Part shown: one piece after another, positions 12,206 through 36,336 of the stretch
Position numbering within the stretch: position 1 is the first letter of the stretch
Layout of the letters: every line of letters begins with the position of its first letter
Source of the DNA: a virus
Reading direction: 5' to 3' (one strand)
Virus record (IMG/VR): IMGVR_UViG_3300031973_001602
Span: 1 to 38,186 of that record
DNA: 38,186 nt
Notes under the pieces: generated by a model
What the model was told of the DNA's origin: nothing
The model's input: only the letters and a program-made list of their open reading frames with translations
Databases searched by the model: none
Position numbers and translations under genes: made by a program

Positions 12206-15200
12206 TTAAAATCGCGTTAGTTCTGCATCATCAATATCAACTGTCGTCCTTGGCTTTACCTCTGGTGGTGATTGTGTCCCTTGTGTTGCAGCCCCCAGAC
12301 CTTGCTGAATTACGTTTTGTTGAACAAATTCCGATGCTTGTCCTGTTGCGGGGGCTACTTCTTCAGTTGCGGGAGAAAGCACGAAAGATGTCTCAAGTTG
12401 TGCCAATTCTACAAGAGAAAAGAAGTCATACGGCCAGTTATAACTGTAATTTAATTCTTTATCTGGAGATGATGTGAAGGCAGCCAATTCTTTATTTGAT
12501 GTAAACGGGAACCCTTGTCCTCTTTCGGATTTCTTTGTAACGTTATTATAGTTGTTTCTTCCCCTCTGCTTTACCTTAAACACCATCCACCTAATATCAC
12601 TAGTTGTACTTAGGAACGGAGAGGTTGTGTACGCCTCATTTCCAAAAAATTCAAACTTAGACCTCAAATTGTGTTCAATGACCGAATGATCTTTTTCTGC
12701 TGTCATAGCAATGTCTGGCATTAAGTTTTGCCAGATATAAGATAGGTCCTTCTTGTCTAGAGTGTGATTAAACTCAAATATATACATGACAACTGGCTTT
12801 GCATTGGCATTTTTTATCGGATCAAGTTGAGGGGGTATATAAAACTTCTTCATCTTCTTGATCATGCCACTAATCGAAGTTTCTTTGATGTCGGTTCCAG
12901 CACCAAATTGGTCTTTTTTGATTGCCGGATCTCCATTATCTATATTAATGAGTTGCTGTAAAAACATCCCCTCGTCGATACTATAAAATTCACCATTTGA
13001 GTTAATAGGTACTGCAACAATCGCTTCCGAAATCTCTTTTCTTGATGCTATTTCTCCTACTCGAACCTTATCGGACTCAAACCCACAAACGTTTATTAAG
13101 GATCCGGTTAGTGAGGCATTCCCGGCAGCATTAAGTATTTTACTGGACTCTACACGTTGTGGAGCCGATTCCCTTATTGCTAAGTAAATTCCATCAGATC
13201 CAGTTGGAGGATTTCCGAAGCCTTTCCATACGCCACGAGTGTAGTATTTTTCATTTCCGTTGGGTCCAGCTCCGAGAGATGCCACATCCATGTCATGCAT
13301 GTTGATGCTTGGGCACTCAAACTTACTCTCAATAACCCACGCATCTTGCGAGTCTTGAAGAACAGTAGTGGATACACCTTCGGGAATAAAATTACCATCT
13401 TCATCTGTTTGTGAACTATAATTGACCTGCTTTAGTGTAAGGCTTCCAAATAGATCCACAGAGGAGCTAATTTGCATTTGATTTCTTGCAACAGGGAGAG
13501 TATAATTAGATGGAACTAACAAGTCTTGTGCTCTCTCGTTTGTATTAAAATACCTTGTAAAGACCTTAGCATTTGCTAATATGTCCCTAAGCTCAAACTT
13601 TCGACTGGAGCCTTCTACCATGTCTTCTATCTCATGCGGTCTAACCTCGATTCTAGCCACAGCATCGCCATAAAAATAAGGCGGCGTGTGAATAGCATAG
13701 CACGGGTCTTCAAAGAAGGCACTTTCATTAACAGTATTGCCAAAATACTTTGGCTGAGCGAGATATGGTGGTCCATAGTGCATACCTCGAACTGAAACCT
13801 TGGGATTTCCTGATCTTCCTCTACCCAATTTATTACTAGGATCAGATTGACTAGCTAGCCCGGAAGACCCTGTAAATGGGTAATATTCAAATGATCCGGA
13901 TGGTCCCTCGTAAGAAACATAGTCTTGTGTTTTAGACAATACCACATCCATTATATATACAGACCCAGACACCATCGATCTAAAATCTTTTTCTGCCTTT
14001 GATATAAACGAGGTTGGTGCTTTTCTCTCCAAGAAAAACTCTTCTACCTCGGCAAAGAAATTGTTAGCTGCCAACGAATACCTAATGTCGGATTGACCCT
14101 TCCAGTTAAAAAAGTAATTTGGCTTGGGTACGCTAGAAAGAGCGCCTGCTTGCCAAGGCTCTCCTCTGCGAGTACCAGCTTGTCCAGTATTAAAAGAACC
14201 AGTGAAATGTGGATACACCAAGAATACACTACCAGAAGCATAACCTACGGTGTTCTGGACTTCTCCAGCAGTTCTATAGTTGTTTGATGCTGTGATGGGC
14301 AAATATCTATCTGGATTTATGATGGCTTCGAATGGAAATGAATAATTTGGCTCATTAACAATTATATTCAAAGGAGTGTTAGAGGCAGAATGTAATGTGT
14401 CTACTCCAATAATGTCTGCTATAGCGTTTCCAGTCCTGCCACCCATTTCGGCTAAATTAGACGGCAATGATCCGGTATGTACCGAATAATCAACTGCGAT
14501 TCCAGATTTAATCGTATTAAAGAAAATACCGGGGGCAAAAAATGGCTGATATAATGCCGCCAACCTTCCTTGCGGAGCCTGTGCCTCTGTTGCTGCCGTA
14601 GATCCGCTTATGTATGGCGAATAAGAAGAGGAAAACAAGTGACCCAACTGGACCGATCTTAATGCTGGATAGAATCCTTGGTATGGGAGTAGTTTTTTGA
14701 TCGCATTAACTTTGAGACTAATTTTAGTTGGACCAGCAGTGCTATTCTTCTTGTGATCTTCTTTCAACTCAACAAACTTAGACATAAAATCTGAATTTGA
14801 ATATATTGTGAAAAATTGATTTTGAAAACTTGCTGTTTCTGAGGTAGCACTCCCTGTTGTATCTAGGGAAGCCCCTATTAAGTCCAAGAATTTATTGTTT
14901 TCAGATGAAAATCCGTTATTAACATAATAGTCCATATGGTCAGAGATCTTAAACTCCGGTAGAATGGAATGATTTTTCCCCATCAGTCTGATGTCTTTGG
15001 AATATTCTTCATATGAGTCATACCAAGGGGTTCTGCCACTAAGCACGTCGGCTCTATATGGCGGAATAAGGTGCAGCGATGCCGAAGCATGATTAATTAT
15101 AAACCCAAGATTTGCTGTTCCCGCATTCTCATTGAAGGCATTATCTGGTCGTCGCCCATAAGGGAAGGAACCAGACCAAATTAAGTTTGGATACTCATAT

Positions 15201-18200
15201 TGGATAGAAGCACTAACCTTTATGCCAAGGGCAGTCGCAGAGCCGATATCAGCCACGGCTCCGTTTCTTGTACCGGCGGTGAGGTATGGGTTTTTGCCGC
15301 CGAGTTCCATAGAATTATATAACCCATAGACCCACCCGGCGTAAGATAGTTCGCCATTTTTATTTACATTGTTCCACCTAGGCTCAACTGAAGGGTTTAG
15401 TTGCGCTCCGGATGGACCTAAAGGTGCCCAGAAATAGGGGTCGAACCCCTCCTCATTCGCCACCACTCCTGCGGAAGCTGATTGCAAATAATAATCGAAA
15501 AATGGCTCTTCTGCATCAAGAGGCCATATGCTAAGATCAATCATTCCGATTGGTCCACTTCCGCTAAATATGGTTATACCCTCTGCGTTTTTTGCAACGC
15601 CTTCGGACCTTATCCTACTGTCAATATTGTCTTTCCAAAATGCAGTGGAATCGCCCAGTCTTAGGTTGAAATTAGATGACCCACTGGATACGGTGTAGTT
15701 TTCCCTGCCTCTCGTTCTAGATAATCCCATCTGGTTCTTTTTCGGGAAGACAATTTCTCCATATGTCAGAGACTTAAAAGTATTAATGGGGCTAAAATCT
15801 CCCAAGTCTTTATCGATGTATATCCTTTTTAGGTCATCATATACCTCTTCGCCTCTCTTGGCTTCAAAACCAATAATTTCATTTATTACCTTGTTATTGA
15901 AAGTGTGGAGATTATTACCATATGTGCTTTTTACAACAACTTCCTCACCGTTTTTTAAAGTAAATTTATGTACAAGGGGCTTATAACTACTAATAACAGC
16001 AGGGTCTCTAAAGCTTACTAAGTTCTTCTCTCTCAATATAGAGCCATCATCAGCATATTTAACAACAGATTGAGTCATTAAAGAAATAAAATTATTTTTA
16101 TTATGATATCTAACAATTGGGTTTTCAGATTGTCTAACCTGTTTCCAAGATGAGAACCCTCCGGGTCCGTTTCGGCGTAGATTCATAGCGTTTAAAAATG
16201 AACCAGTACCTATTGACCCGTCAGCGGAATTAAAGATTGGAGCGTCAAAGAGGGCTCCTCCAGCAATGAAAGTCGTGTTTAGTGATGTATCAAATATTAT
16301 ATTTGTATATGGGCTAAATGTATCAACAAAGTGAGTATTTAAGCCCACAAAACTAACTGGTATTTTAGTAGGATCTAAGTTAGCCGATGACGAGTTATAT
16401 ACGGACCCGCCGGGACTAGTTGAGAACATCCTGTGTCTTCTATCGGTTGGAGCGCCAGCGGCAGAAAATGTTGTTACGCCAATAGTTGAGCCAGCGCCAC
16501 TCCATGTTGGTGTAGATAACACCGTCGAAGCTAGTGGTCCGGGGACAATCTGGACAATAGCCATGTTTGACGATCCATACCCTGCTGTTACTACACTATT
16601 TGGTAATCCCCCATTGTGACCATTAGCACTATTAATAGCTGCCTGAAGTTGGGCTGCATATGCGTCCTTAGAAGACATCCCATTGATTTGAACAACGATT
16701 GACGATCCGTCAGAGTGGATTGCCCCTGTAGAGCCTTCTCCACTATCATCGGTAAATTTATAAGTTTTAAGCGTTCCCATGGTCGACCTAAAAGCGACAG
16801 TCTGGTTGTCATAGTTGCCGATTGTGTCACTGAGAAAAAGAAGATTTGACACCCCTTGGTCAGCATAAATTAAAAATGAATTTGTATCGCTTGTTAAAAC
16901 AAAACTAATATCACTTGATGCTTCACTAGCGTTATTGGCATTAGGTTGAGAATATCCGAACGGTGCGGTCAAGGCTGAAGCGGTTATCCAAGCATATTGC
17001 AAATCACTTTGGGGGACCATGTGTTGAACCCAATAATTGTCATATACACTTGCTGTCACAACTGATTCTGCTGTGCTATAAATCCCTGCCGCTGAAAGTT
17101 CTATTCTTTTTGCCCCATTTCGTTGTGTCTTTTGGTAAGAAGCAGAAGGCTCTCCAAGGACGCTATCATATCCACCGAAAGCAGTGTGCTTTGTTAAAAG
17201 AGTTCTTAAGGGACTTCGCACAGCCAAGTTTCTAAATGGCAAAGCATTGTATACTGAAAAAGTCTCTGATTCGTAATCTAGATATCCCGAACTGTTAACC
17301 TCTGGACCTCCGGGGGCGGAAAATCTGCTAACCATAATGCTAGCATGTCTGCCCCTGTCTGGGACCACGTAATCTTTAAGTCCAAAAACCGAAGTTGACG
17401 CAACTGAAGCGGTTGGTATGCCATTGTTTTCGACAAGATATCTGTTATTAATACTTCTATCTGGTATCTGTACAATTTCATAATTATGGGCGTAATTTCC
17501 CATACTTACTATCGAGCCATAGCTACTACTAAGGGTGGCGGTAGTTGTTTTGATATTCTTTATATTAACTGGGCTTTTTGCTATAAAGTCTCTTGTGAAG
17601 TCTGATCGCGTGAATGTAGAGCCAAAATAACTTGGATTTAATATATTATAATATATATTTCCTCCCGCGAATGTCGGCACCGCATACCATGCTTCGGGTC
17701 TCTGATCCTTCCTTGGCTCTGTTGGTCCGCTTAATTGAACTGGCTTCCAAACATAACCTATGTTTCTATATTGATTGCCCCCAACATGTTGTCTGGTAAA
17801 GGGACCCTGAGCCGGTACTTCTTTTGTGTCCAAGTAGTAATCTCTTAAGTGATCTGGTCCAGCCTGATATCCGGTTGGGACACCAGTAGCGGCGGTAGTG
17901 ACACTTGATGAGAAGAAAGTATAGGGCGACACTAAGGCATTTGAATACTTTGATTGAGTATTTGTTGCGTCATTTAGCTGCACCTGATAATCGGCAGATC
18001 TTTTTATATTGGGGTTGATCTTGATATCATCGGCACATAAGATGCTACTGGTTGTGAATGTGGTTGTGTCATAAGTTATTGTTCTATTTGTAAAAGGTCG
18101 TGTTTCAGCCATTACAATTGATCTTTTATTGTATTTTGTTTTGAGTGGACCGCCACCTTCCTTTGCTGTAATATTGTAAGGGGAGCCAAATCTCCTGTTG

Positions 18201-21200
18201 AATACTTGCAGGGATGCCGAATGGATCATTTTCCTATCCGCGTCGACCGAAGCAACCCCAGTCTCTAAAAATGATTCCCCTCTTGATGCCTTTTTATTCC
18301 ACCAATTACAGTTATCAGTCTGGCTTAGACTCAGTGGCGCATGACCATGTTGCCAATCATAAAGAAGCTCATTAATGCCCCTTATTGACCCCGTAGGATC
18401 ATTAGACCCAAATTCCATCGTTGGAAACTTGTGAGCATATTTGCTTCTTTCAAAAACATGACTTTCAACAATGTTTTTTACGCCCTCAATCTGTGAGGAT
18501 GCTGGTACAAGCTGGTTGACCATTTGGCTGACTGAGCTATCTAGCCACTTAAAATATTCTAGATATTTATCTAAATCTGGTGTATTGCCGATTCTTTCGA
18601 AGAAAATCTCTCTTATTTTTGTTAGCAACTTATAGTTTGGTCTATACTTGTTAATCGGATCTCCGATAAGATTCTCCAACCCGCTGGCTTCAGCCGAACA
18701 TGCCAAGAAGTTAAGCATTTGTTCAGAAATCGCTTGGTACATGCTTTTCTCAACCGCAAAACTAAATTTAGTTGGTCTGGTTCTAGGGGAGAAAAACTCT
18801 TGATCTCTAGTCAAAATCTTGACAGTATCTGAAACGTCTAGATTTTCTGGTACTTGTTGCTTATAACTATAGACATGCTGTTTTGATATCGCATCTGTGC
18901 TTGATGGGTAAAAATATAAACCCCTTCCTGTATGCTGCTTGAGAAGTAGGTCAGAAAGGTCTCCTCTAAATTTACTATCAGCGGATCCAGATGAGAAATC
19001 TTGTACAACAAATTCTCCACTAGCATCGGAACCAGTCACTGTGTTGAAATCCCAATTTAATGCCAAAGTTCTTATTTTTGGTACATTAACTTTGTAGTTT
19101 TGAAACAAATAGGCACTTTCCATGGGATCAAAAAGACCATAGTTCGATGCGTCAATGGCATGTGATATAATTTCGTCTTTCTCTAGCGGCAAAGCCCAAT
19201 ACCTACAAGACGAGATCTTCGTATTCGTCCCCACAATTAAAGAGCCTGTGTAGTTTGTCCTGTGAGACCCAACATATAATCTTTTTTTGCTAGCTAGGAA
19301 CTCGTTTCCGGATGAAACAGAACCAGTCAAAACAAAACTGTTCACCACTATATCGGCTTGTGTATTGTAGCCATGGAACTCTACATTATATCCAGATGTT
19401 CCGGATACTATTCCCAAATTTGGATAAGTTGATGGCAAAACCTTTACGGCAAAATGCCATTTCTCATCTTCGTATACATCTTCAAAGAAACTAGATGTTA
19501 AATATGGAACTGTTGCTACAGTGGTAGAGTTAACATTCGTTCCAGTTAATACAAACTTAACTTGATTTAAATTATATTGACTTTCAATCTTTGAATTGAC
19601 ATCTCTAACAGCATAAACTTGAAAACTTGCGTAGTCATTGTCCGCCCAAGTTGTATCTCCCTCATTGGATGGCTGTATTGTTGCCCCGTGCATACCAAAA
19701 AGTGATGCCGAGATAGGGACATACTCTGTATCAGCCTTTCTTGGGTTATTAATATCCAATTCTTTTGGAAATATCACATCCGTTTCAACAGTAAAGCCAA
19801 TTTCGGCATCAAACCCTGCCGATTTATTGCTGCCTGTAATATACATGGCAGAATTAGAATTTGAGGAAGCCGTGCTTTGATATACTAGTGCGTTGAAATT
19901 ACTAGCCGTAGCAAAGTTAGCGAAGTTTTTAGTTATTATTTTTGGAGTGATCGACTGATTTAAAGTAATATCAGCATTGTTTGCATAAAAAGACAAAGCA
20001 TACAGGTCATCGTCGACTCCAAAACACCTAATCAAGTTTCTTATTGACTTTTCTGTACCTTTTGATTTATTAATAAAATTAAGGTTATTGTAAATATTTG
20101 TATATATTTGATTTTTTACATTTACCAATTCCGTTTTATATTCTCGAACATTGTCTCTATTGGCGAAAAAAGGTAATACATCTGCCATAGAAAACAACTC
20201 TGGTGCTACAAAACCTTTGGATTCTAAAAGTCGCCCTGCGAAGGGGATGGGCTTATAGGCACTCCCCGAAACACTTCCGCTTATGTATGAGTGATTTTTT
20301 ATTTTTGGAAGTTGTTCTGTCTGAATATAGAGTTCATCAAAATAACTGGCAACAATTTGAGTCAATTTTCTGATCGAAAATCGGTCTTTGTCTGAATCCT
20401 CATCCAACATCCATTGAGGCATTAGCCTGTATACACCCATGCTATTCTTGTTATCATATTCAAGACCCTCGGCTACTTTTTCATTCATCAATGAAACAAC
20501 TGATGGGTGATTATTGTATACGATTGGGTCTTTGAATTCTCGTTCTGCCGCACTAGCACTAACAAGGGCTGACCCTACATACCGGATTGTTGGACTTGAC
20601 GCATGAGTGCTGTAATTTTCATACAACCCATTGGAAACTCTCCCTGAATAATCAAGAATTGTTTTGTCTTGGGCAGAATATCCCGTAATGCCCTCATTAA
20701 ACTTATAATAAACACCTAGGTTTACAGGATTTGATGATCCACTAAACTTTGAATTTTGTGAACCATAGTCAGAATTTGTTCCACCAGCTACCTGTGTAAA
20801 CCAATTTAAATTAATATCTTTTTCGTTTCTAGCTGTTTTCCAAAATCTAAACTCGTCAAATAAAGAACCAGAAAGTGCTCCATAGCCACTATCGTCAACC
20901 CCTGTAAAGTTAGATGCTGGTTTATATCTATACGATCCAATGTTTGCATTAAAAGGACCCTCTTTAACTTCGGAAACCTGTGATCCTGAATGAACTGAGT
21001 CGATCAAGTTTCCATTAATATAAAGGTTGAATAGTAGATGGTCTGACCCTGTTGGATTATTTTGTGCAATAAAGGCATAATGATTCCAATCAGTTAAATC
21101 AATATTATACGCGCCAGAAAGGCTTGTTGGACCGAGTGGGACTCTTTCAGCACCTGTATTCCCAGACATGTAAGTGATGTGAAACACAGAGTTGTCTACG

Positions 21201-21964
21201 TAAGAACCGTTTAATGTCTTGTTGAGCCTTGTTTCAATTAAAAAACGTCCGTATGTCCCACTTGAAGTTTTGCTTGTTCCCTCGTTCCACAAATCAAAGT
21301 ATGCATGAGAGGGGGATGTTTGGCTTTTCGATGGTTCGGTTGGCAATTTCATCCAGAATTCAACTGTATTGCCCTTTGTACCATCAATTGTTAAGTTTTG
21401 TGCCTGACTGCTAGTCAGATTGAAGATGTTTGCTTTTTGTTTAGGATCCTTATAAGTTATTTGCTTATCGTAATCTGGATCATAAGTAGGGGCAGTTGGA
21501 CCATGTGGTCCACCCTTTATAGAAATGATCTGCGGATTTAATGACTGAACAAATTTATCAGTGGCATCGAAGGCTACAGCCCCGACATCATTGAAGTATG
21601 CTCCAATTGTGATGTATCCGTTAGTCCTAGGATATTCATACTCGAAGAAATAATTGTCAAAGTAAGAGGAGGAATTGTGCCAGCTATATTTCTCCTGCAA
21701 AGAGCCATCATAGGGGTAGGTTCTGTAAATGTTGTGAATAGCTTTTTTATAATACTCTTCAGCGGATCCGAACTTAGCAAAGTTTGCTGGATTTGAGAAG
21801 TCTATATTTGGCTTAAACCTGTCTCTGTCCTTGAGAAAAGCTTCGACATAATTTGGAGACTCTACTTCTCTTGAGATACCGCCAAAACTAGAAGAGACCA
21901 AACTTTTATTGGGTCTCGCTCTTTTTTGAGATTTAAAAAGGCTTTTTGCATCTTTTCTCGACAT
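12206..21964 (-). CDS. Giant LamG/concanavalin A-like tail or baseplate protein
   Basis: This is a 3252-residue protein. Residues about 195-380 form a LamG-like (laminin G/concanavalin A) jelly roll, from TVEFWMKLP to FDEFRFWKTARN. A second, more diverged copy is likely at about 720-925, from GFTVETDVIFP to SSCRYWALPLEKDEI. Between them, near residue 634, is INKSKGTEKSIRNLIRCFG, a helical element I associate with large phage tail proteins. Residues about 1720-1835 hold a module also found in the 649-residue neighbour. The C-terminal region contains IRWMVFKVKQRGRNNYNN (near 3125) and SYNWPYDFFSLVEL (near 3175), then a disordered tail. LamG folds often bind carbohydrate, so a receptor or peripheral baseplate role is plausible. 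Its start overlaps the previous stop (TAATG). Its position after gp6 parallels T4 gene 7, but homology to gp7 is not shown. Confidence 0.9.
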   Translation of the reverse strand: MSRKDAKSLFKSQKRARPNKSLVSSSFGGISREVESPNYVEAFLKDRDRFKPNIDFSNPANFAKFGSAEEYYKKAIHNIYRTYPYDGSLQEKYSWHNSSSYFDNYFFEYEYPRTNGYITIGAYFNDVGAVAFDATDKFVQSLNPQIISIKGGPHGPTAPTYDPDYDKQITYKDPKQKANIFNLTSSQAQNLTIDGTKGNTVEFWMKLPTEPSKSQTSPSHAYFDLWNEGTSKTSSGTYGRFLIETRLNKTLNGSYVDNSVFHITYMSGNTGAERVPLGPTSLSGAYNIDLTDWNHYAFIAQNNPTGSDHLLFNLYINGNLIDSVHSGSQVSEVKEGPFNANIGSYRYKPASNFTGVDDSGYGALSGSLFDEFRFWKTARNEKDINLNWFTQVAGGTNSDYGSQNSKFSGSSNPVNLGVYYKFNEGITGYSAQDKTILDYSGRVSNGLYENYSTHASSPTIRYVGSALVSASAAEREFKDPIVYNNHPSVVSLMNEKVAEGLEYDNKNSMGVYRLMPQWMLDEDSDKDRFSIRKLTQIVASYFDELYIQTEQLPKIKNHSYISGSVSGSAYKPIPFAGRLLESKGFVAPELFSMADVLPFFANRDNVREYKTELVNVKNQIYTNIYNNLNFINKSKGTEKSIRNLIRCFGVDDDLYALSFYANNADITLNQSITPKIITKNFANFATASNFNALVYQSTASSNSNSAMYITGSNKSAGFDAEIGFTVETDVIFPKELDINNPRKADTEYVPISASLFGMHGATIQPSNEGDTTWADNDYASFQVYAVRDVNSKIESQYNLNQVKFVLTGTNVNSTTVATVPYLTSSFFEDVYEDEKWHFAVKVLPSTYPNLGIVSGTSGYNVEFHGYNTQADIVVNSFVLTGSVSSGNEFLASKKRLYVGSHRTNYTGSLIVGTNTKISSCRYWALPLEKDEIISHAIDASNYGLFDPMESAYLFQNYKVNVPKIRTLALNWDFNTVTGSDASGEFVVQDFSSGSADSKFRGDLSDLLLKQHTGRGLYFYPSSTDAISKQHVYSYKQQVPENLDVSDTVKILTRDQEFFSPRTRPTKFSFAVEKSMYQAISEQMLNFLACSAEASGLENLIGDPINKYRPNYKLLTKIREIFFERIGNTPDLDKYLEYFKWLDSSVSQMVNQLVPASSQIEGVKNIVESHVFERSKYAHKFPTMEFGSNDPTGSIRGINELLYDWQHGHAPLSLSQTDNCNWWNKKASRGESFLETGVASVDADRKMIHSASLQVFNRRFGSPYNITAKEGGGPLKTKYNKRSIVMAETRPFTNRTITYDTTTFTTSSILCADDIKINPNIKRSADYQVQLNDATNTQSKYSNALVSPYTFFSSSVTTAATGVPTGYQAGPDHLRDYYLDTKEVPAQGPFTRQHVGGNQYRNIGYVWKPVQLSGPTEPRKDQRPEAWYAVPTFAGGNIYYNILNPSYFGSTFTRSDFTRDFIAKSPVNIKNIKTTTATLSSSYGSIVSMGNYAHNYEIVQIPDRSINNRYLVENNGIPTASVASTSVFGLKDYVVPDRGRHASIMVSRFSAPGGPEVNSSGYLDYESETFSVYNALPFRNLAVRSPLRTLLTKHTAFGGYDSVLGEPSASYQKTQRNGAKRIELSAAGIYSTAESVVTASVYDNYWVQHMVPQSDLQYAWITASALTAPFGYSQPNANNASEASSDISFVLTSDTNSFLIYADQGVSNLLFLSDTIGNYDNQTVAFRSTMGTLKTYKFTDDSGEGSTGAIHSDGSSIVVQINGMSSKDAYAAQLQAAINSANGHNGGLPNSVVTAGYGSSNMAIVQIVPGPLASTVLSTPTWSGAGSTIGVTTFSAAGAPTDRRHRMFSTSPGGSVYNSSSANLDPTKIPVSFVGLNTHFVDTFSPYTNIIFDTSLNTTFIAGGALFDAPIFNSADGSIGTGSFLNAMNLRRNGPGGFSSWKQVRQSENPIVRYHNKNNFISLMTQSVVKYADDGSILREKNLVSFRDPAVISSYKPLVHKFTLKNGEEVVVKSTYGNNLHTFNNKVINEIIGFEAKRGEEVYDDLKRIYIDKDLGDFSPINTFKSLTYGEIVFPKKNQMGLSRTRGRENYTVSSGSSNFNLRLGDSTAFWKDNIDSRIRSEGVAKNAEGITIFSGSGPIGMIDLSIWPLDAEEPFFDYYLQSASAGVVANEEGFDPYFWAPLGPSGAQLNPSVEPRWNNVNKNGELSYAGWVYGLYNSMELGGKNPYLTAGTRNGAVADIGSATALGIKVSASIQYEYPNLIWSGSFPYGRRPDNAFNENAGTANLGFIINHASASLHLIPPYRADVLSGRTPWYDSYEEYSKDIRLMGKNHSILPEFKISDHMDYYVNNGFSSENNKFLDLIGASLDTTGSATSETASFQNQFFTIYSNSDFMSKFVELKEDHKKNSTAGPTKISLKVNAIKKLLPYQGFYPALRSVQLGHLFSSSYSPYISGSTAATEAQAPQGRLAALYQPFFAPGIFFNTIKSGIAVDYSVHTGSLPSNLAEMGGRTGNAIADIIGVDTLHSASNTPLNIIVNEPNYSFPFEAIINPDRYLPITASNNYRTAGEVQNTVGYASGSVFLVYPHFTGSFNTGQAGTRRGEPWQAGALSSVPKPNYFFNWKGQSDIRYSLAANNFFAEVEEFFLERKAPTSFISKAEKDFRSMVSGSVYIMDVVLSKTQDYVSYEGPSGSFEYYPFTGSSGLASQSDPSNKLGRGRSGNPKVSVRGMHYGPPYLAQPKYFGNTVNESAFFEDPCYAIHTPPYFYGDAVARIEVRPHEIEDMVEGSSRKFELRDILANAKVFTRYFNTNERAQDLLVPSNYTLPVARNQMQISSSVDLFGSLTLKQVNYSSQTDEDGNFIPEGVSTTVLQDSQDAWVIESKFECPSINMHDMDVASLGAGPNGNEKYYTRGVWKGFGNPPTGSDGIYLAIRESAPQRVESSKILNAAGNASLTGSLINVCGFESDKVRVGEIASRKEISEAIVAVPINSNGEFYSIDEGMFLQQLINIDNGDPAIKKDQFGAGTDIKETSISGMIKKMKKFYIPPQLDPIKNANAKPVVMYIFEFNHTLDKKDLSYIWQNLMPDIAMTAEKDHSVIEHNLRSKFEFFGNEAYTTSPFLSTTSDIRWMVFKVKQRGRNNYNNVTKKSERGQGFPFTSNKELAAFTSSPDKELNYSYNWPYDFFSLVELAQLETSFVLSPATEEVAPATGQASEFVQQNVIQQGLGAATQGTQSPPEVKPRTTVDIDDAELTRF
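16460..16807 (-). other. Recurrent module inside the 3252-residue protein (copy 1)
   Basis: This region encodes residues about 1720-1835 of the giant protein. It starts near NQTVAFRSTMGTLKTYKF, continues through AYAAQLQAAINSANGHNG and ends near GVTTFSAAG. The pattern F-x5/6-GT-x3-(Y/F)-KF-x-(D/K)-D, then an A-x-x-A helix, then Gly/Ser/Thr-rich strands, is also seen in the 649-residue protein. Boundaries are approximate. I interpret it as an inserted domain shared between proteins. Confidence 0.55.
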
Positions 21965-23913
21965 TACTCTTCTACCTTAAATTTAAAAACTTCTTTTTGC
22001 TCTCTATACGACCCGTTGCTATAATAAGCAAATTTTAACGCATATTCATATCCAGTTTGTAATAACTTCATGTCTAAATCAAAATAATTCCCAGAAATAT
22101 CGTAAGATAGGCGAGTATATGCTCCTGTTGACCCTTCAGCCAAGGGAGACAAGGCAGACCCTGTTCCAAAAGGAATTACTTGGTATTCATCGGATGTTCT
22201 GTACAGACTAAAGTATGCGTCTTCAATAACTTCGCTGGGTAGACTAGTTTGCATTGCTGTATAATTATTTGGATTCCAGTTTTTAGATCTAACAAATAGC
22301 CTAAATCTTGCCTCTTCCTCTCTAGAGTAAGAAGGCTTCAAGTTGTCGACGACCGTAACATAATCAGGATCGGGATTATAATTTGAAGCATTGATAGTTG
22401 AGACATCTATGCCTGAACTGGTATGGTATGATACTACATCATTAAAATGCCATGCCGCGTAAACTGTATCAAGAGAGTGTGACATTGCTAGAGATGCTGT
22501 ATATATACCAGTGACGGCTCCCTGTGGTCCATTATAAATTCCACCCGTTGCATTAAGAAAATTAACAGTTGTTACGTCTCCGCCTTTTGGTAATGCTAGT
22601 TTATCATATATGTTTCCTGCTGAGTTTGAATATAAACTTACGTGGATCACATTTGTGTCTGCATGTACGGAATTGGCTGGTATGTTTTGTAACTGACCAC
22701 GGACATAATTATATAAGTATATTGTATTGAGATTGTCCTCACCAGTTGCTAAAGAACTGCTTAAAACAAAATTAGCTGTATTGTCTTTTGTGGAAGAATC
22801 CCACCTAGCCTCCAAATTTGGTCTTTTCAGGAAATATTCGCTTGATCTAGCAAAGAACTTCTTTGTGTAGTATGAATGAGAGCCTGTCTCATAGCTAGAA
22901 GATAAGAAAACGCCCAATCCGTAGTTTGGGATTCCTGTGCCGTTAACGAATTTATTTGAACTAACAAGACCATTTGTTCCAATCGATCCGGTTATTACAA
23001 GGTTGCCGGGACCTCCAACAGTATTTCCAGCCAAACCTAAGTCGTCTTGGGAAAGAGTGAAATAATCTGTTCCAGTATCGTTGGTAGTAGCAGTTATCCT
23101 AAGTTCGGACACATTATTCACTGATGCTATTATTTTAGTTGCTATAGCCGCGACAGATCCTAGACCACTCAGTCCTATTATTTTATGTTCTCCGATTGCA
23201 CCCTGACCTTCTGTTGTTACATCTTTATCAAATTTAAAAATAACAGTAGTGCCTTGAGAATCTACAAGGGTAAACTTCTTATCATCTAGGTTTGTAGAGG
23301 TTGCTGAACTATGCACTTGCACTGCTGCCGAAGCCTTTACTCCTCCAGTCATCCAATCTTCAACAGCGTTGCTGATATCTACTGAGAGGTCCTCTGTTCC
23401 GTCTGTAAATGAAGTTGTGTATACTGGAGACAAAATACTTTCTGCGAAATCTCCGCCCTCTGTTAGCCAATCAGAATTGCCATCTCCGGGAGAACCTTTT
23501 CTTATCCAGTTAGATCCAGTCCCTTCGTATGTTTGGTCTGTATAGTTATCCATATCCAAACCATATCCCTCTTGCCAAGAACCAGAGCAAACCTTAATAA
23601 CCATCTTAAAGTCTTTTGGTAAAGAGTAGGCATGGGCAGCGTTATACATATTGAGGTACCACGAAACATTTCCGCTAGCCGGTATTAAACCGTTGGTTCT
23701 ATCCTCGTTCATTTTATCTATATCAAATTGAATAAGAATTCTTGATTTCTCTGAGGATAATCCAGAAGAGGCTGATGTCTGACCGGCGATATAAAAAGCC
23801 TCAAGAACATCTGCTGCACCCATATTGGATCCAGTGCCTCTTGTTTGTAGATCCTCCTTGAGGGCATTTGAAATTGTATTATCTGAATTAGCAATATATC
23901 TTTTAATAGCCAT
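21964..23913 (-). CDS. Virion structural protein with a DNRLRE-like domain split by an insertion
   Basis: This 649-residue protein lies between gp6 and the LamG giant. Residues about 1-190 resemble a DNRLRE-type beta sandwich: SRILIQFDID, then SGSWQEGYGLD, then VDISNAVEDWMTGG at 178-191. In that family the W-x-x-G element is normally followed closely by NYGL and an F-x-S/R-S strand. Here those occur only at 330-333 (NYGL) and 353-359 (FFARSSE), so residues about 192-327 look like an insertion. The C-terminal domain (about 525-649) ends in strands such as YEYALKFAYYSNGSYREQK. No catalytic residues are apparent. Start and stop both overlap neighbours in TAATG junctions (23913 and 21964), and GGGAG precedes the ATG by nine bases. 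A wedge or peripheral baseplate role is likely from context. Confidence 0.86.
   Translation of the reverse strand: MAIKRYIANSDNTISNALKEDLQTRGTGSNMGAADVLEAFYIAGQTSASSGLSSEKSRILIQFDIDKMNEDRTNGLIPASGNVSWYLNMYNAAHAYSLPKDFKMVIKVCSGSWQEGYGLDMDNYTDQTYEGTGSNWIRKGSPGDGNSDWLTEGGDFAESILSPVYTTSFTDGTEDLSVDISNAVEDWMTGGVKASAAVQVHSSATSTNLDDKKFTLVDSQGTTVIFKFDKDVTTEGQGAIGEHKIIGLSGLGSVAAIATKIIASVNNVSELRITATTNDTGTDYFTLSQDDLGLAGNTVGGPGNLVITGSIGTNGLVSSNKFVNGTGIPNYGLGVFLSSSYETGSHSYYTKKFFARSSEYFLKRPNLEARWDSSTKDNTANFVLSSSLATGEDNLNTIYLYNYVRGQLQNIPANSVHADTNVIHVSLYSNSAGNIYDKLALPKGGDVTTVNFLNATGGIYNGPQGAVTGIYTASLAMSHSLDTVYAAWHFNDVVSYHTSSGIDVSTINASNYNPDPDYVTVVDNLKPSYSREEEARFRLFVRSKNWNPNNYTAMQTSLPSEVIEDAYFSLYRTSDEYQVIPFGTGSALSPLAEGSTGAYTRLSYDISGNYFDLDMKLLQTGYEYALKFAYYSNGSYREQKEVFKFKVEE
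22933..23340 (-). other. Recurrent module inside the 649-residue protein (copy 2), splitting a DNRLRE-like domain
   Basis: This region encodes residues about 192-327. Key elements are FTLVDSQGTTVIFKFDKD (214-231), a helix SVAAIATKIIASVNN (253-267), ITATTNDTGTDYFTLSQ (273-289) and LGLAGNT (292-298). It resembles the module at residues 1720-1835 of the adjacent giant and separates the W-x-x-G and NYGL elements of the surrounding domain. Confidence 0.6.
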
Positions 23914-26220: not shown

Positions 26221-29200
26221 CTAGTATGGGTCAGTAAAGCTATTTTTATACTGTTGCTTGCCCTTGAGGAGGCATACTTGACTTATCAATGCCCTAATCG
26301 TGTTTTTAGTGGGGTTAAAGGCTTTCCTGAATGGTTCACTTCTACTAGCAACCAAAACACTATGTAGTACCACTAGGCTACACATCTTTGGGACAGGAAA
26401 GCTATAACTTAAAATACCCTCATACGCTGGATTTGATGCTATATTTTCAACTATATCTTGAACGACTTGCTTTCCATATGGCGTTTTCGTAAAAACACTA
26501 AATTGGTCCGCGACGTAGTTTATCTCATCCGATCTATCACTTAAGAATTTCCAACCTCCATTAAAAGAACTAGGTCCATTAATTTTTACCTTTTGGTCAA
26601 ACAGTGGCAATATTAAGCTAAATATCGGATCAGTCAAATTGTCATCCCCAGATTGAACAGTATCACTATAGTGAACATTTTTATTTTCTATTAGCATTAA
26701 AGATTTTGTTTCTTTGACAAAATCGATATAATCGTTTACTTCCGGCTCTTGATGTGGTCCAGTTTTTAATTTAGCTGAAGAGATTATATTTAATCCATTA
26801 ATGTCTAGAAGATCCTTAAACTCATCGAACATCTTTTTTACTGGTTCTACTTGGTCCTTTATTAATGGTTCGCCGTTTTCGTCAAGAGCATCAGTTTGGA
26901 CCGCCCCATAGCACCACCTTATGCCAAAATTTATTTCTTTAAATAAGTCCTGTAACTCTATTTGAATATTATTAGTATCGACAGTGCCATCACCATCCAT
27001 GCTCAACAAGGGCTCAACGGGCGGTGTATTCGAAGGATATAGAGAAGGTATGCCACACATTAATGATATTAGTTCAATAAAATTGTCTTCGCTTAAAATT
27101 CCTTTTAGTCTTTTGTCGCGATTTACTAACGATTCTATATAATTATCGTCTCCCTCTTCCCAATCGATCAATTCATAATAATATTGAAAGAAAAATTTAC
27201 CGTTCTTAAACAGGTCTATCCTGTTTGGAGAAGCAATAGAAACGTTTTCCACGCCGTCAACAAAGGGTTCATCATAAACCTGAAGCATCAATGGGTAAGA
27301 TACAGACGCTAGTGGATTTAATTTTTCAATACCTACGCCGCTGCCCTTAAGAGTAAAGGAGTTCAGTTTGTTTTGTATATAAGGAATTGGATTGGCTAGA
27401 TTTTCTTTAATCAAGTACCTTAGCCCATCTTTCCAACTCTCAATCCTATAGTCTGTTTCACCAAAAACTGTTTGGCTCTTAGCAATACCGGGAATACCTC
27501 GCTCTGGGTCTTCAAGGTCATCAGCCACAAAAGGAATTGATGCTCCATTACATGCTTTGAATAGACCTTCAATAACCTCAGAAACATTTTTCTCGAAAAG
27601 GCTAGGTCCATTTGTGATATAATCAATCATGTTTCTGTAAGTCAATTCAACAATTGCGTCATCTTGCAGAACAATGTCCGTTGGCAACTTGGATAATGGG
27701 ATTAATCCCCTTATATACATCTCTCCAACAAATATTTGAATTAAAGACGAAATTAATCCCTGCAATATTGCGTAATGGGGCATACCAAGCTCGTCACTAT
27801 TCGGGTCGTAAAATCTCGAAAAGTCGTAATTTTCTTGAACTAATTTCTCAACAACCTCAAAGTCAATCAGTTGTTTTTTCTCATTAGCAGAGGACGCTAG
27901 ATTCAACCTTGTCATTTGTTTTCTAAGGTATGTTCCGTTATAAAAACTTTCAATTAAGTCATCTGTAATCCCATCTAATCCGGCAGCCAGTGCAGCGAGT
28001 TCCAAAAATGCAAACTGTAGACCAAGACCCGGAATAATATATAGGGGGTTAAAGCCTCCCAAAATATCATCGGTTGGATCTAATTCAAATTCTTGCAACA
28101 ATTCGGCATTTGAAATACTTTCAGCGAGGGTATCCATCACCGAGGACCAGATAGACCAATAAATGTCGTTTTGAAAAATTGATTTAAATCCATCAATTGT
28201 TTTATCATTTAATTTAAAATTTCCAGATTGAATATTTTTTAAAATTAATTCTGAAAAATATTGAGCCTGTGGGGGGGCGGACAAGTTTTTATTCAGAGGA
28301 TATTGATTCAAATGATCCAATAATAACATTGGTATCTTCTTTGTGTTTTCATCCAGAAGAGTTAAATCAATAGTTTGCTTATTGTCCTTGGCTCCAAATA
28401 GATTTGCTACTTTTACTTTGGTTACTAAGTTGTTCTCATAGAGCAAATTACCATCTTCATCTTTTGAGGGGGGTAACATCTCTAAAATAATATCCGCTTT
28501 TTCATCAACTTTGATCTTTATAGAGGCTGCACTCTCTTCTGTTGATTTGTTGATCTGGATATTCTGCTCCAAAGTTTGTAACATATCGTCTATGCCTAGA
28601 ACTTCTTTTCCATCTTTATCTGTTGCCTTTATAGCAACACCTCTGCTTTTCAAAGAGAAACTGGATCCTTGGGTAAAGCCAGCATTTGTCCCTCCAGCAG
28701 ACCATTTTGCGGGATACAATAAGTCTTTTCTGTCGATATCTGAATTTGACAACAGATTCGTGAGTGCTATAGGAAGGGAACTATCAAGAAGAGAATCTGT
28801 TACTGGGTTTTTGCTGACCAGAACATTTTGCTGGAGATTTATTAGGTCTCTATTCATTGCTGCCTTAATAGGAGTTACCATTTGCTGAACAGTTTGCTCT
28901 ATCACATGATCCATTGTCGGATTGGGAAGACCGGATAGAACACCTTGATTACCCACGCAATCCCCAAAAATGGATGGCAATTGATTAGACATATCTTGGT
29001 TTTTCCTGATTGCATCTGCCAAAGCTCTGTATTTATCTAAATCAAAATTGAGAGCCCTCTGAGCAGAAGCATCAAATAAATCACTAACACCACACCTCTC
29101 TGCCAGTTGAGCTTTTGCGTCAGCAAGTAGATTACTACACAGTTCTGGGTTTTCATATTTGTCGATGATATCATTTTCAATATCCGCCAGAACTTTCCTA

Positions 29201-32200
29201 GGCAATCCAAGACCAGCGCAAGTAAAGAAATCTTCTATTCTAGACTTGTTGTTTAGCTGAATTTTAATCTCGGGATATTTTGATATTTCTTCTTCTCCAA
29301 CTTTGAGAATAGAATCGGTTATGCTGTTTCCAAGTAGACCCAAGACCTCTCCAGAACTAAGCCTGTTAGATATCGAAGTCATCATTGTTAATACCATATC
29401 TCCCGTAACATTCTCCCCATCTATCAATATTCCGCACTCAGAGAAGTAATCCTCTAGGGGTGGGAGATTTAAGTCAGGATTACTAAATATTTCTCCCAAA
29501 TCTTGACCGCCATAATCTTTTACTTGCTTTTGACCTTCTGGGCAAGTGATTTCGGGACATTGCAGGAGTAAGTCCAAAAGCGCCTTGACCAATTCCAGTA
29601 ACAATTGTGCTAAAATAAATTCTAACGCTGCCAATAGAGCATTCAAAAGTTCGTCTAATATATTTGTTGTCGGTAATCTCAAAAAGAAATCTGGTATTTC
29701 CATACAAAAAGAGCATATCAAATCTGAGGCTTCTAGTTCTTTTGGATCAGTATTTATATCCGCCTTTGGACCCTTTGATTGATTTTTGATCTCCGACTTA
29801 TTTTCACCAGAAAGGGCTGATTGTGCTGGATTTGGGCTTATGTTTGCTCCCACAGACCCCGCATTAGCATCTATCTCCAAGTTTGGTACTGTTATTGTAT
29901 CAATCCCGATTTGATCAAGAAAACATTTGCAAATCTTTGCGTATAAAGTTGCTGGATCAATATAATCCAAAACGTATTCTTGAAGGTCATCGAGGTCAAT
30001 TACTTTATTTTTAATATCTTCTATAGCTGGTGCTGATGCTAACCAATCTCCGACATATTCTTTAATATTTTCTCCGTCGAAAGCCTCTCCAAAAGCAGTG
30101 ATGGCGTCGATATTTTCAAAAGTAAACCTTTCGTCATTGACCTCAAAGGTGCCTTTAAATAATGTGTCTCCAACTCCAGAAGGAGGCTTTGGGCACGGGG
30201 GGAAATATTTATTTAAACTAAATTGAAACGACCCTAAATCAAATCGCGGATCTAATTGTAATTGCTTATCCAACGCTGAAGCGATTGGACCCAAAACATC
30301 TTCCCACCTAGGAAGAACAAAGTTTAAAGGCTCACAAGGTGTTGAGGGATATCCGTTTGAATCAAGCTCCTTTTCTACGATTGAGGGCTTTGGGTTGACA
30401 AAGTATTTTTTAATGGCATCTTGCCACTTTAACATAGGGTTTCTTATCAGCCTGTGGTTATAAAACAAACTCATCGTGTTTGTATTGTTGAGCGGCAATG
30501 TGTTTTTAAAATGTTCCAATCCTATATTCAATAATTCAAACTTTTTCTTATCATGATGTTTGTATGCTATATAGACTAGTTTATAATCCTCATTCATACC
30601 AACTTCTATTATGTTATCAAGACCAGACCCAAGAACAATATTATTAATGGATAAATATTTCTTTATAAGCGTCGGAATAAATTCAAGACGCTTCATTTCT
30701 TGCATCAAATCAACACCAACTAGTCTATATTTTGACGCGAATATTTCTAGATACATCCTGTTGAGACCAAACAATGCTTGATTAATGTGGCTTGCATAAT
30801 ACTGTTCGTTTAGAGTTATTTGATAAATTGATTGATCTCTCAGCGTTTTTAAACTTTTTTCGACAGTCTGAAAAGCATTTAAATATATTCCTCCGACTTT
30901 TACTAAAAACTTAATACTCGAACCCGGTCGCAAATCTAAGTGATAATCTTCAACAGAGGTTACAAGATAGGCGTCTGCCATATTGTCTATATCTTTTTCA
31001 TTATAAGACTTCCCATAAAAATCAAAAAGATTTTTTATGCCTATCTTCTCTGCTACTTTCTTCTTTTCTTCCAAATCAGAATCGTCTACTACGCAGCTTT
31101 CTCCAGTCAGTTCAACTGATATCCAATACTCTCCGTCTTCCAAATGATAGTATGGCTCTTCTAATTTCCACCAAGTCGGAGCCAATGCTCTTGACATATC
31201 AGACATGGGCTTTATGATGATTTTTGCTAAATCCAATACAGTTGGCGGATTATCATATATTCCCTTTCCGCCAGATTTATATGGAGTTGAGAAGAATAGC
31301 CCCTTCTCAACTGGTTCGAGGTGCTTGGGGTGTATAAATCCAATTTCTCTATCCATCTCCCCCGCTTCGGGATCAATTATTTGTATTCTATTCCACTTGC
31401 CCTCGCCGTTTACCCACTCTTTTAGCACTTTTACAGTTGTAAAATTGTCAATATATCCCAGAATTCTACTTCCGGATCCCGGCTTTGTATATATTGCTAC
31501 TTCTTTTGGCAAACCCTTATCCCATATGTAACTGCTTACTGGGGCATTTACCTTTGGAACGTTCTCTATATCTGAATATAATGTCTTTGATTGCTCTATT
31601 TTTTCACTAATTTTCCCCATAGCCTTTAATGCTGCTTGGGCTGCCTCATATGATATATTGTCCACTACCTGTATTGTTGGAAACACGCCAAAATCAAAAC
31701 TTAAACCAGCAGATTCAGATCCGTACAAGCTGTTCTCAAAGCTTTGATATGCCTTCGATAAGGAGTCTGAATATAGGTTGGCTCCACCTTGGTACAAAGA
31801 CGCCTCGAATAGTTCTGTCAGGTCCATGCCTATGTCTGTATATTCAGAACTTTCTCCCGCAAGACCAACGATTCCCGCCTTCACAAGATCAATAATCATT
31901 CTATTTTCATCAATTTCCATCTCTACTGCGTAGGAAAGATTAACATGAGGTTTGTCGACATTGTTTCTATAATTTTCGCTAGTGATATCATTGTCTAACT
32001 CATAGTTTAGAGTCATATATGGCTTACAAGAGTCAGAAATGTTGTTTGAAGTCTTGTAAGTCTTAACACCAAATCCATCTGTCGACTTATTAGAGAAATA
32101 CTGCTTCTGGTATACCTCGACTGTGCCAGCCTCGCCCTGCGCGAATCCTGCTCCGGGCTCCCCAATAACAAATTGCTCTTTAGTATAATAAATTCCGAGA

Positions 32201-35200
32201 TCAGTTTCTTCGGAACCAAAGCCTGCGGCTCCTGCATTTGCAGCAGCGGCGAGTGCCGAAGAATGATTGTCAGCGCTGAACGTAAATGTTTGTGAGGACA
32301 GTGGCAGGTTTGGGGGGACCAAGCCATATTGAGCCGCATCCTGTTTCACAGTTGGATATATTCTTAAAGATTGAACCCAGTTGGGCACACATTTCCTCTT
32401 TTGACCAAAAAGTCTCGGGTTTTGTTGTAGATATGAAGACCACTTTTCAAATATTTCAGAAGTGTATTCTGTTGTATCCGCAGGTGCTCCTTGGGGATCT
32501 TGAATTAGTGGTGCCCAACTAATATCATCCAAGTTAGACCAACCCTCATCTCCGCCCCTGCACCAACTCCATATCGGAAATTCAAGCAATGAGAATCTGT
32601 TAACAAAGATGGGAACATTTGTTCCTTTATACACACTATCAATATTATTTTTGTTGTAATCTATGGCATTTTGTACTTTTTGCTTCTTTTCATTAATCGA
32701 ATATGCATTGTCTTGCACACTCACAACATCAGATCCTTGGTAGTCGCTTGCGGGTCCGTATTGAGCAAAGTATTCATTTGCAATGTCATCCCAGCCTTGG
32801 GCGTTGTCGACAATATAATTAACAACTGGGTACCTCGGAGTACCTGCAAAGTATTTTTGATAGTGTGAATAAGAATCACTTAGCCCGGATTCAGGAAGAT
32901 ATTCTTTTTCAAACAACAATGGATGCATATCATCATAGTTGCTTTGCTTGAAGCTTGTAGCGCTTCCGTCCAATGTTGCAATGGTGTCGTCATCACCCGA
33001 GCCAGAATCTGCAAGATAATTGATTTTTAAATCAAATCCAACACTAATTTCGAAATTCATTTGTTTGGATTTATTCCACACGGGGGAAATTCCCTCTAAC
33101 AAATCGGGGATCCAATTTTGCCCAGAAAAACCCATTCCATTAGGTTTCGTTGCAAAATGATATGATAACCACAAATCAGATAAAGCTTTAGTTATAGCTA
33201 TGGGGGGCAGATCTTTTTCAAGCATTTTTGCAATAGTTTGCCGACCAGTGCCATAACTTGGAAGCGAATTGACCATGCTAGCGATTGTTCTTGGGTTTCT
33301 AGGTAGTAGCGCAAATCCACCGGCACTCACAGCATAATAGTCCCCAAAGCCACTTTTTGGCTGATAACTTCCATCTTTTTGCCAATATTTTGTATCGTCT
33401 CCACCAATCCAGTCGTTGTTCCAAAGTCCGAATTTTGTTGAAAAATCTATATTCTTTTGGGGTATCATCGGTATCCATTTTTCAGAAATTCCAACCTTTC
33501 CGGGTGCAATATCCTGAAACTTACTGGCTTCCGGTGCTCCTATTTTTTCATAATTTACATTTTCAATCACAGTGTCTGGTGATACTGGAGAAGGGATGGA
33601 TTTTCTTGGATCCCTAGCTAAAACTGGAGCGTTTATCCACTTTCTTCCGACTTGAAATTCAAAAAAACTACCGGACATAACCCTTTGTGTCTGAAGCTCA
33701 TTGCAACCAAAGTCTTCCTCAGAATATGGTAAGTAAAAAGGTTTCTCAAGTTTCATTGATGTATATCTTTCTGTTTTACTATTCGGCTCCTTTGTTGCTG
33801 GCTTAGGTCCAGCAAATCTGGGATTTTGAGGAACTACTTGGGTAATGTATTCCAAAACTTTTGGAAGTATAAAATTTAAGGTATAATGAGGATTATCTAA
33901 ATAAAGTTGCTTCTTATCATCAGGGACTCCTGCTGGTATTAGTTTATACATCGATACTAAGTTGGATGTTTTAAAATTGGCTTTATATGACTTATTGTTT
34001 AACTCTTTGGCTTCTATAAAGTTACCTTCTAATGCCGCCAAGTCAATAGAATTATAATACCATTTTGTAGTTGCAAATCCCGCTTCCGAACCCATCGAAG
34101 CATGAAGTGGGCTGGTTGTCATGGCTGTTTTCATACTAGGAAACCAAAGACGAGCTTGTGTTGGGGTAATCGGCTGGAATGGGTTATCGAATTGTTTGTT
34201 TGCGTTTGAAGAAAGCTTGTTAATATGCCCTTCCAATTCTCCTTCTAGCTGTGCTATACCAGCAGAAGCATTTCCGTCGACATTGTTTTTAATTGTAAGG
34301 TAATTTGTATCCGGACATTTTCCACTTTCATAATCTTTATATTCTTCATTTGAATAGCTTTTGGCTTTCGGAGTGCCAGAGACACCAGAGGCTCCCGGTT
34401 TTTGCGCTGTTGGATTGTTAAGACTGGGGCTTTTACTTCCATCTAGATTTGCCTCTCCGGGGAAACCTCTAATTTCAAAAATATGAGAATTTGTGTAATA
34501 TTTATTAAATTCATCATCCTTAACAAAGGCAGTATCACTTGTCCTTGAGGCACCCAACATATGATAAAATCTCGAAACAAGATCATCGTTTTGATTTTCT
34601 ACAGAAAACTTTGGAGAAAGTTGTCTGCCCATTTGAACGGGATCTGCGCCAGCTAATCCGGTCATACCTCCGTTCTTTTCGACTATTGTAAATAAGCCCC
34701 CTACAGATCCCGCTTGCATACTTAGGTTTTCAAAAGGCACTGCACTGTCTGGATTGGCGGACCCAAAATTTGGCATTCTACCAAAACCCCACGATTTTTT
34801 TATATCATTATCGTAATTTTGATCGATTCTTCTATTGACATTTCCAACAGGGTATCCAAAATAATTGTAGGCAATTGCTTGTGTTAACGCCTTTCCGACC
34901 AAGGACTCTAAAACAAAATTGGCGAATTTATTTCTATCCCATTCACAGTATATTGACTGGAATGATACAGCATCATCTGTTCCATCATTAACTTGAATTG
35001 GCTGCTCTTGACCATACCTGTAGGCAAAAAACTCTTCGGGGGTGCTAAATCCGTATTTATTATTCAAGGGGTTAAACGGGCTGCTAATCGTGTTATTTCC
35101 GGCTGTGGTTACCGTGGTGGTACTTAAGTATTGGGGATCTCCCTCAGATATTTGTACACCGTCAATCTCAATTTGCCTCGATGTTGCTCCAGTATCTGGT

Positions 35201-35337: not shown

Positions 35338-36336
35338 CTAGTTTGTATTGTTTTTCTTACTTAGAATTGATCTAGATCCGGTTCCTTTTAAATATCCAAA
35401 TTGCTCCAACTTAGTATTGATTGCCAAAGTGATTTCATTTGGGAATTTTATAATCAAGTCTTGTATTGATTTTATAGCTGTCCCTATCATAACTTCTGGT
35501 GACGGTCCCGTAACACCCGTCAGGGGATCAATATGTATATGGTTCTGGACAATAGTCTCTAGTGTTTGAGTAGCAATACTGACTTGATGCAAGTGATTCG
35601 CAATCCTCTCTATATCGTTAAGCATGTGACCAAGGAGTTCTTTTAAATTTTTGCCTTTTACTAAAGGCTGCAAATCAGAATCATCATTTCCCGCAATCAG
35701 GTCAATGCCACCGATAACATCTACCTTTCCTTTTTGTGAATTCTCATCGTCAGTTCTTGTAACAATTTTTATATTCTCTCTTGCTACAATCCTAACAAGG
35801 TCTGCTTTCATTCCGATGGCAGACCTTGGCTTTGGGCTTAATTGTTTACCCGGACAAATACCAAAATTAAAATCAATATTTGTTTTTTGGCTTATATATA
35901 TTCTTGCTGCGTCTGTTAAAAAATCATTATCGACTTGCAAAAGCTCTTCAGGAACTTTTCCATTGTTATATAATCCATCTATAATTAATTTGTCAGTTTT
36001 CTCGTCAGTGCAATCTGTTGTTGTTGATTTTGCTTCTTTTGATCCTCTCCCAACAACAATGTCTATCGCCCCAGCATGAGAGTCTCCAGACCCACCATAC
36101 CCTGTGGCGATTGATCCGGGGCGGTCTCTCCCAAGTGTAATCCAAGTATTATTTTCACCATTAATCACTTTCTCGCAAGGAGCTTTCACAAAATTTGGGA
36201 TTGGTTCAATCTTTTTACCATTTCCGTATCCTGCATACTTTAACCTATCGACTTGCGTTAAGCCATCGAGCTTTTCTTTCAATTTATCCGATAAACAAGA
36301 TATATTACTTCTTGGTTGTGATCTTTTGCTAGCCAT
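35338..36336 (-). CDS. Central spike-like baseplate protein with HxH motifs
   Basis: This 332-residue protein has a beta-rich stretch GDSHAGAIDIVVGRGSK (84-100) and another from SAIGMKADLVRIVARENIKI (172-191) to VDVIGGIDLIAGN (205-217). The latter is typical of the gp5/gpV-like spike region of baseplates, as I remember it. A helix (LKELLGHMLNDIERIANHLHQ) leads to NHIHIDPLTGVTGPSPE, where His266 and His268 form an HxH. In P2 gpV and phage phi92 gp138, an HxH at the spike tip binds iron; here the motif is followed by 64 more residues, so equivalence is uncertain. It starts in a TAATG overlap with the upstream M15 gene. It may be the spike part that T4 carries on the same chain as its lysozyme. 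The role is a reasonable inference. Confidence 0.7.
   Translation of the reverse strand: MASKRSQPRSNISCLSDKLKEKLDGLTQVDRLKYAGYGNGKKIEPIPNFVKAPCEKVINGENNTWITLGRDRPGSIATGYGGSGDSHAGAIDIVVGRGSKEAKSTTTDCTDEKTDKLIIDGLYNNGKVPEELLQVDNDFLTDAARIYISQKTNIDFNFGICPGKQLSPKPRSAIGMKADLVRIVARENIKIVTRTDDENSQKGKVDVIGGIDLIAGNDDSDLQPLVKGKNLKELLGHMLNDIERIANHLHQVSIATQTLETIVQNHIHIDPLTGVTGPSPEVMIGTAIKSIQDLIIKFPNEITLAINTKLEQFGYLKGTGSRSILSKKNNTN

Follow-up and report, generated by a model that had tools for sequence, protein, structure and literature searches.

Promiscuous Ig-like domains are known from the structural proteins of tailed phages and are thought to aid adhesion. In phage T4, Hoc carries strings of Ig domains (PMC10385173), and the ongoing domain shuffling in phage proteins includes the recent exchange of fragments concerned with host interaction (PMC10684548). 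We describe here another accessory domain, about 115–135 residues in length, which is present in two virion proteins of one marine virus. On the basis of sequence comparison and structural models, we consider it probable that this module is a phage-exchanged, self-contained domain cassette, spliced in frame into the loops of virion proteins and having an accessory binding role.

Two modules and their setting

The window, by which we mean the whole stretch of 38,186 bases that was analysed, is an IMG/VR virus record of an uncultivated marine virus, and its gene content suggests the baseplate–tail region of a myovirus-like phage. Next to the gene of host protein A are those for gp25 (PF04965) and for a baseplate wedge protein resembling gp6, and the gene of A is followed by that of host protein B (Table 1). 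When Pfam and PHROGs were searched with protein A there was no match, and no PHROGs family rose above noise for protein B, whose Laminin_G_3 domain was detected by a separate scan of the N-terminal part. Orthologs of A were found at 79 loci in IMG/VR, and orthologs of B were located in the same loci; among isolated phages protein A was unmatched, and the sole match of protein B, a weak one, was in a Flavobacterium phage. Elsewhere on the minus strand of the window, positions 332–1495 and 1511–2680 are neighbouring structural genes with paralogous C-terminal parts (24.5% identity, E 7e-11), and positions 26221–35325 encode a second giant protein of 3034 aa, in which residues 1276–1315 match SH3_3 below threshold (E 6e-4). 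The product of positions 36336–37913, on the same strand, had no Pfam match at E 0.01; its C-terminal half resembles a VanY-type peptidase (HETGLAIDF ... WHWEV).

Table 1. Positions in the window of the host proteins, the modules and two acceptor sites that are empty here
Feature	Position	Strand	Evidence or remark
Host protein A, 649 aa, virion-type	21964..23913	-	ORF; flanked by B and the gene of the gp6-like wedge protein
Host protein B, 3252 aa, giant mosaic tail protein	12206..21964	-	ORF; ortholog insertions at many sites
Laminin_G_3 (concanavalin A-like lectin) domain, B residues ~189-384	20813..21400	-	PF13385, E 1.9e-9, above cut-off
Module a, A residues 192-327	22933..23340	-	Profile match 22939-23337, E 7.8e-32; clean gap in orthologs
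Module b, B residues ~1703-1835	16460..16858	-	Profile match 16460-16852, E 8.9e-22; missing in ortholog L009
A acceptor site ~138-144, empty in window	23482..23502	-	Filled in relatives by module or lectin-like domain
B acceptor site, residue 1212, empty in window	18329..18331	-	Modules in L024, L027, L031, L131

The earlier note had reported a pair of similar segments in A and B, sharing the motif GT-x3-[FY]-KF-x-[DK]-D, and had regarded the two proteins as otherwise unrelated. Both segments are present, with their limits refined as in Table 1, and the motif occurs exactly twice among all proteins of the window, at A 221 and B 1730. The module stretch gave the one significant blastp alignment between the two proteins (A 203–266 with B 1712–1778, 28% identity), all other A/B pairs being far below, and A and B are in this sense unrelated elsewhere. 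This pairwise evidence alone is marginal (28 bits, E 0.007), and it is the profiles that decide. A convergence of Gly/Ser/Thr-rich strands, instead of homology, would agree with the low pairwise identity and the biased composition, but it is extremely unlikely, because the local score of module a against B (70) was never reached by composition-preserving shuffles (maximum of 67 in 1000 shuffles of module a) and because profiles and predicted folds agree; the next best score of module a against non-overlapping tiles of B was 37. An independent profile, built solely from inserts at another site in A orthologs, matched A 191–325 (E 1.3e-11) and B 1710–1786 (E 3.4e-7), all other proteins of the window staying outside the inclusion threshold. 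Profile–profile alignment, which had been proposed as a check, joined the A-module and B-module profiles with an hhalign probability of 97.6% (E 3e-12); the A-module profile against the single B sequence gave a probability of 28% only, and relatives are therefore needed to reveal the kinship.

We regard it as confirmed by these profiles, and by the models described below, that modules a and b belong to one domain family. Since they are only ~20–28% identical to each other, their split should be old, and module b is degenerate and poorly conserved in its second half, with a 3' limit that is approximate. Residues 36–188 of the gp6-like baseplate protein, once taken as a module, reflected early iterative-profile drift and were removed by stricter iteration. 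As sole queries, module a retrieves only the contig of locus L009 and module b only 7 weak loci, and the breadth of the family was therefore assessed via a canonical subfamily.

Optional presence and movement between host proteins

On a backbone tree of protein A, constructed from 71 distinct ortholog rows with inserts left out, 38 rows lack inserts, the module is at residue ~140 (137–144) in 15 and at ~192 in 14, and another insert is at ~140 in 4; this distribution requires at least 16 changes of insert state. The nearest ortholog of B, that of L009, is also without module b (residues 1703–1861 are missing), yet module a is kept in its protein A; the segments are thus not universal parts of their host families, being absent from 38/71 A orthologs and from this B. 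Carriers at A residue ~192 are the window and L002–L010, and a clean gap at 191/329 is seen in most of the remaining orthologs, among them L011 and L026, the latter being the closest carrier-free ortholog (78% identity in the best segment). Among these carriers the modules often diverge more than the backbone, a pattern that would fit either faster change or replacement; L003 has 81% identity in the backbone and 43% in the module, but L009 has 86% in the backbone and 93% in the module. In relatives of B, the module is found at about a dozen sites (reference residues near 246, 320, 704, 775, 860, 995, 1212, 1430, 1600 and 2693), some of these positions being approximate, with flanks that align poorly.

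A virus record of 192.6 kb (L031, IMGVR_UViG_3300025127_000009) contains the module five times; four copies lie in a single frame of 5536 aa, which also carries an FG-GAP propeller. In L090–L095, L115, L116 and L128 module copies are tandem or truncated within one protein. The B inserts near 960 and 1212 in L006 and L011 are of a second type (VTTPIIFTSTTDINSAASRNGEHIQF...), which is missed by the module profile and is perhaps another mobile domain. Similar inserts with FTVTVPTAAGG... (B of L010 and L035; A of L014 and L019) form a divergent group at differing sites, borderline to the module profile.

The search of viromes for other contexts, which the earlier note had also suggested, found the module in at least 17 unrelated virion proteins of related viruses. 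A scan of viral contigs with the module of L024 gave 76 loci, and these, together with the relatives of A and B, contain 176 module domains in 127 proteins, which fall into 17 host families, defined as sharing no similarity after module masking. The hosts include the tail sheath (PF04984, PF17482; L108), a phrog_376 tail protein (L120) and a Tail_P2_I protein (L115). The canonical module has sharp edges at [AP]ATATIT and FTGG. Between site 1212 of L024 and site ~775 of L046 the identity is 83% over 343 nucleotides and 90% at the amino acid level; the similarity stops at the module edges, and the host proteins are 39–44% identical. For modules in unrelated hosts, the nucleotide identity reaches 96% over 254 bases and 90.7% over 343 bases (median 74%), and in the module tree the host families are interleaved, the tail sheath family requiring four separate arrivals.

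The carriers at A ~192 around the window form one group on the tree, as would be expected if the module were an ancestral domain of both host families that has been lost many times and has never moved. This explanation is scarcely credible, in view of the differing sites within one protein family, the 17 unrelated hosts and module DNA that is 83–96% identical between hosts sharing nothing else. Presence and absence, differing sites and near-identical DNA in unrelated hosts bear out the mobility that had been proposed for the module, and by such sequence comparison recent movement is established for the canonical subfamily, modules a and b lying outside that evidence. An assembly artefact is unlikely, because the same module is found at the same B site in L081–L084, whose records belong to four datasets with different numbers.

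Sharp edges, high DNA identity and multi-site spread might also indicate a selfish DNA-level element, which has its own mobilisation signal or enzyme and is translated in frame incidentally. We consider this very unlikely, because the module is without its own reading frame, the constraint is on the protein, and the ends show no clear target duplication (shared words in the flanks 3.66 against 3.44 ± 0.13 in shuffled sequences, p 0.05), no clear terminal inverted repeat (6/18 matching positions against 4.6 in shuffled sequences) and no extra synonymous conservation. As no clear end signals were found, ordinary recombination would be the simplest route. A bolder possibility, to which we give a small chance, is that the module is itself a protein-coding mobile element, which spreads among unrelated virion genes in marine phages along a recombination route that is either dedicated to it or strongly biased; if true, different virus families would share one stock of exchangeable surface parts. 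An intein was rejected, since the splicing residues (Cys/Ser/Thr first, His-Asn last) are absent and the canonical ends are those given above, and so was a transposon or homing element, because the module and ends examined showed neither a further reading frame nor clear end signals.

Predicted fold, constraint and probable role

In AlphaFold models, another check proposed earlier, modules a and b share the order of strands and helices: a strand, a short helix, three strands, a helix, two strands and two short terminal strands. The core of module a, taken from the full-length model of A, is E-E-E-E-H-E-E, module b modelled alone reached a mean pLDDT of 81.6 and a pTM of 0.79, and in each model strands 4 and 5 are separated by a helix of ~14 residues. 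A Foldseek search with the full 649-aa model of A retrieved multi-domain all-beta matches only. With the module itself, a fold search of the PDB gave nothing at E <= 0.001, and that of predicted viral proteins gave ten matches at E <= 0.001 (module-normalised TM 0.49–0.70), two of which are annotated as baseplate J-like and several as belonging to uncultured tailed phages.

Across unrelated hosts the dN/dS of the canonical module has a median of ~0.16 (pairs with dS < 1), which indicates that its protein sequence is kept for its own sake. An inert spacer, a ligand-free domain that makes surface proteins longer and is tolerated as bulk or stiffening, would be consistent with the many positions and proteins, with the tandem copies in L090 and L115 and with the lack of an obvious conserved catalytic motif; part of the constraint could be explained by folding stability alone. 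On the other hand, this low dN/dS and the near-invariant loop stretches of the canonical form (GDQSSV, NLMNVINTSSGPAG and FTGG) suggest a specific role shared among hosts, and we therefore regard the spacer as unlikely, though with a real chance of being correct. The earlier note had pictured a mobile decoration domain in surface loops that changes the binding or the bulk of the virion surface: its mobility stands, an effect of bulk only is disfavoured by the strong purifying selection across unrelated hosts, and we infer that the loops face outward and that the effect is on binding.

The reading that we prefer, that of an exchanged binding cassette, would work as follows. A self-contained mixed alpha/beta domain of this size would be exchanged among phages as a DNA cassette, by ordinary phage recombination, either illegitimate joining or homologous exchange between resident modules, and selection would then favour the in-frame products. 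Both ends of the domain probably lie near each other, and its insertion in a loop would then leave the host fold intact. Facing outward on the virion, the domain may provide accessory binding in the manner of lectin-like domains, its probable targets being glycans or matrix of the host surface or the environment. By analogy, adhesion is the likely role of the module. Laminin_G_3 (PF13385) is found at the same or neighbouring acceptor sites (A ~140 in L035; B near 1610; and B near 305, where it is a second such domain in L014, L061 and L069), and relatives have an FG-GAP propeller in B near 1523; this sharing of sites fits loops that display accessory binding domains. The module gave no match to lectin profiles.

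Comparison with known systems

The module family has no convincing match in Pfam, NCBIfam or PHROGs, and its canonical form was found neither in 50,697 phage records nor in GTDB species genomes. Three module types gave no match in phage isolates, where module a had three weak matches (E 0.4) and module b none. Among the papers listed in searches of the open-access literature, none describes the module. Against Ig-type profiles nothing exceeded the curated cut-off, and Big_3 appeared below threshold in single members only.

Weak likenesses were noticed in two directions. The outer domain of the phrog_165 tail sheath has a weak profile match to the module over strands-helix-strands (4/43 members, best E 6e-4), and that of the A-1(L) sheath gp9 (PDB 8kee) has a weak profile similarity (E 0.019); no tail sheath is among the PDB fold matches listed for the module, and these profiles give hints of homology with, or origin in, the sheath outer domain. 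The best PDB fold match is the outer domain of the Pseudomonas FliC flagellin (4nx9; TM 0.49), and another flagellin, 5gy2, has a weak profile match; with E 0.37 and 0.22 neither is significant, and the flagellin likeness is a lead only.

In uncultivated marine phages the family is shared by a wide range of unrelated structural proteins, and its movement, being legible in DNA, provides a natural system for measuring the exchange of virion-protein parts among phages. Maps of its insertions mark the loops of core tail proteins, the sheath included, that tolerate a whole extra domain. Like the phage Ig-like domains, the module is optional and has been shuffled as an accessory part among unrelated virion proteins, but it is a mixed alpha/beta domain with a central helix, placed inside loops, whereas those domains are all-beta Ig sandwiches. 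It follows the same general process as the shuffling described in PMC10684548. None of the libraries tested contains the family, nor do the isolates tested contain its canonical form, and a search of the text of that paper gave no mention of the sheath, which is one of the hosts here. Domain shuffling and promiscuous Ig-like domains are thus already known, and what is new here is a fold family other than Ig that has no library entry, together with the large number of its acceptor sites within a single giant protein and the evidence, at the DNA level, that it has moved between virion genes unrelated to each other.
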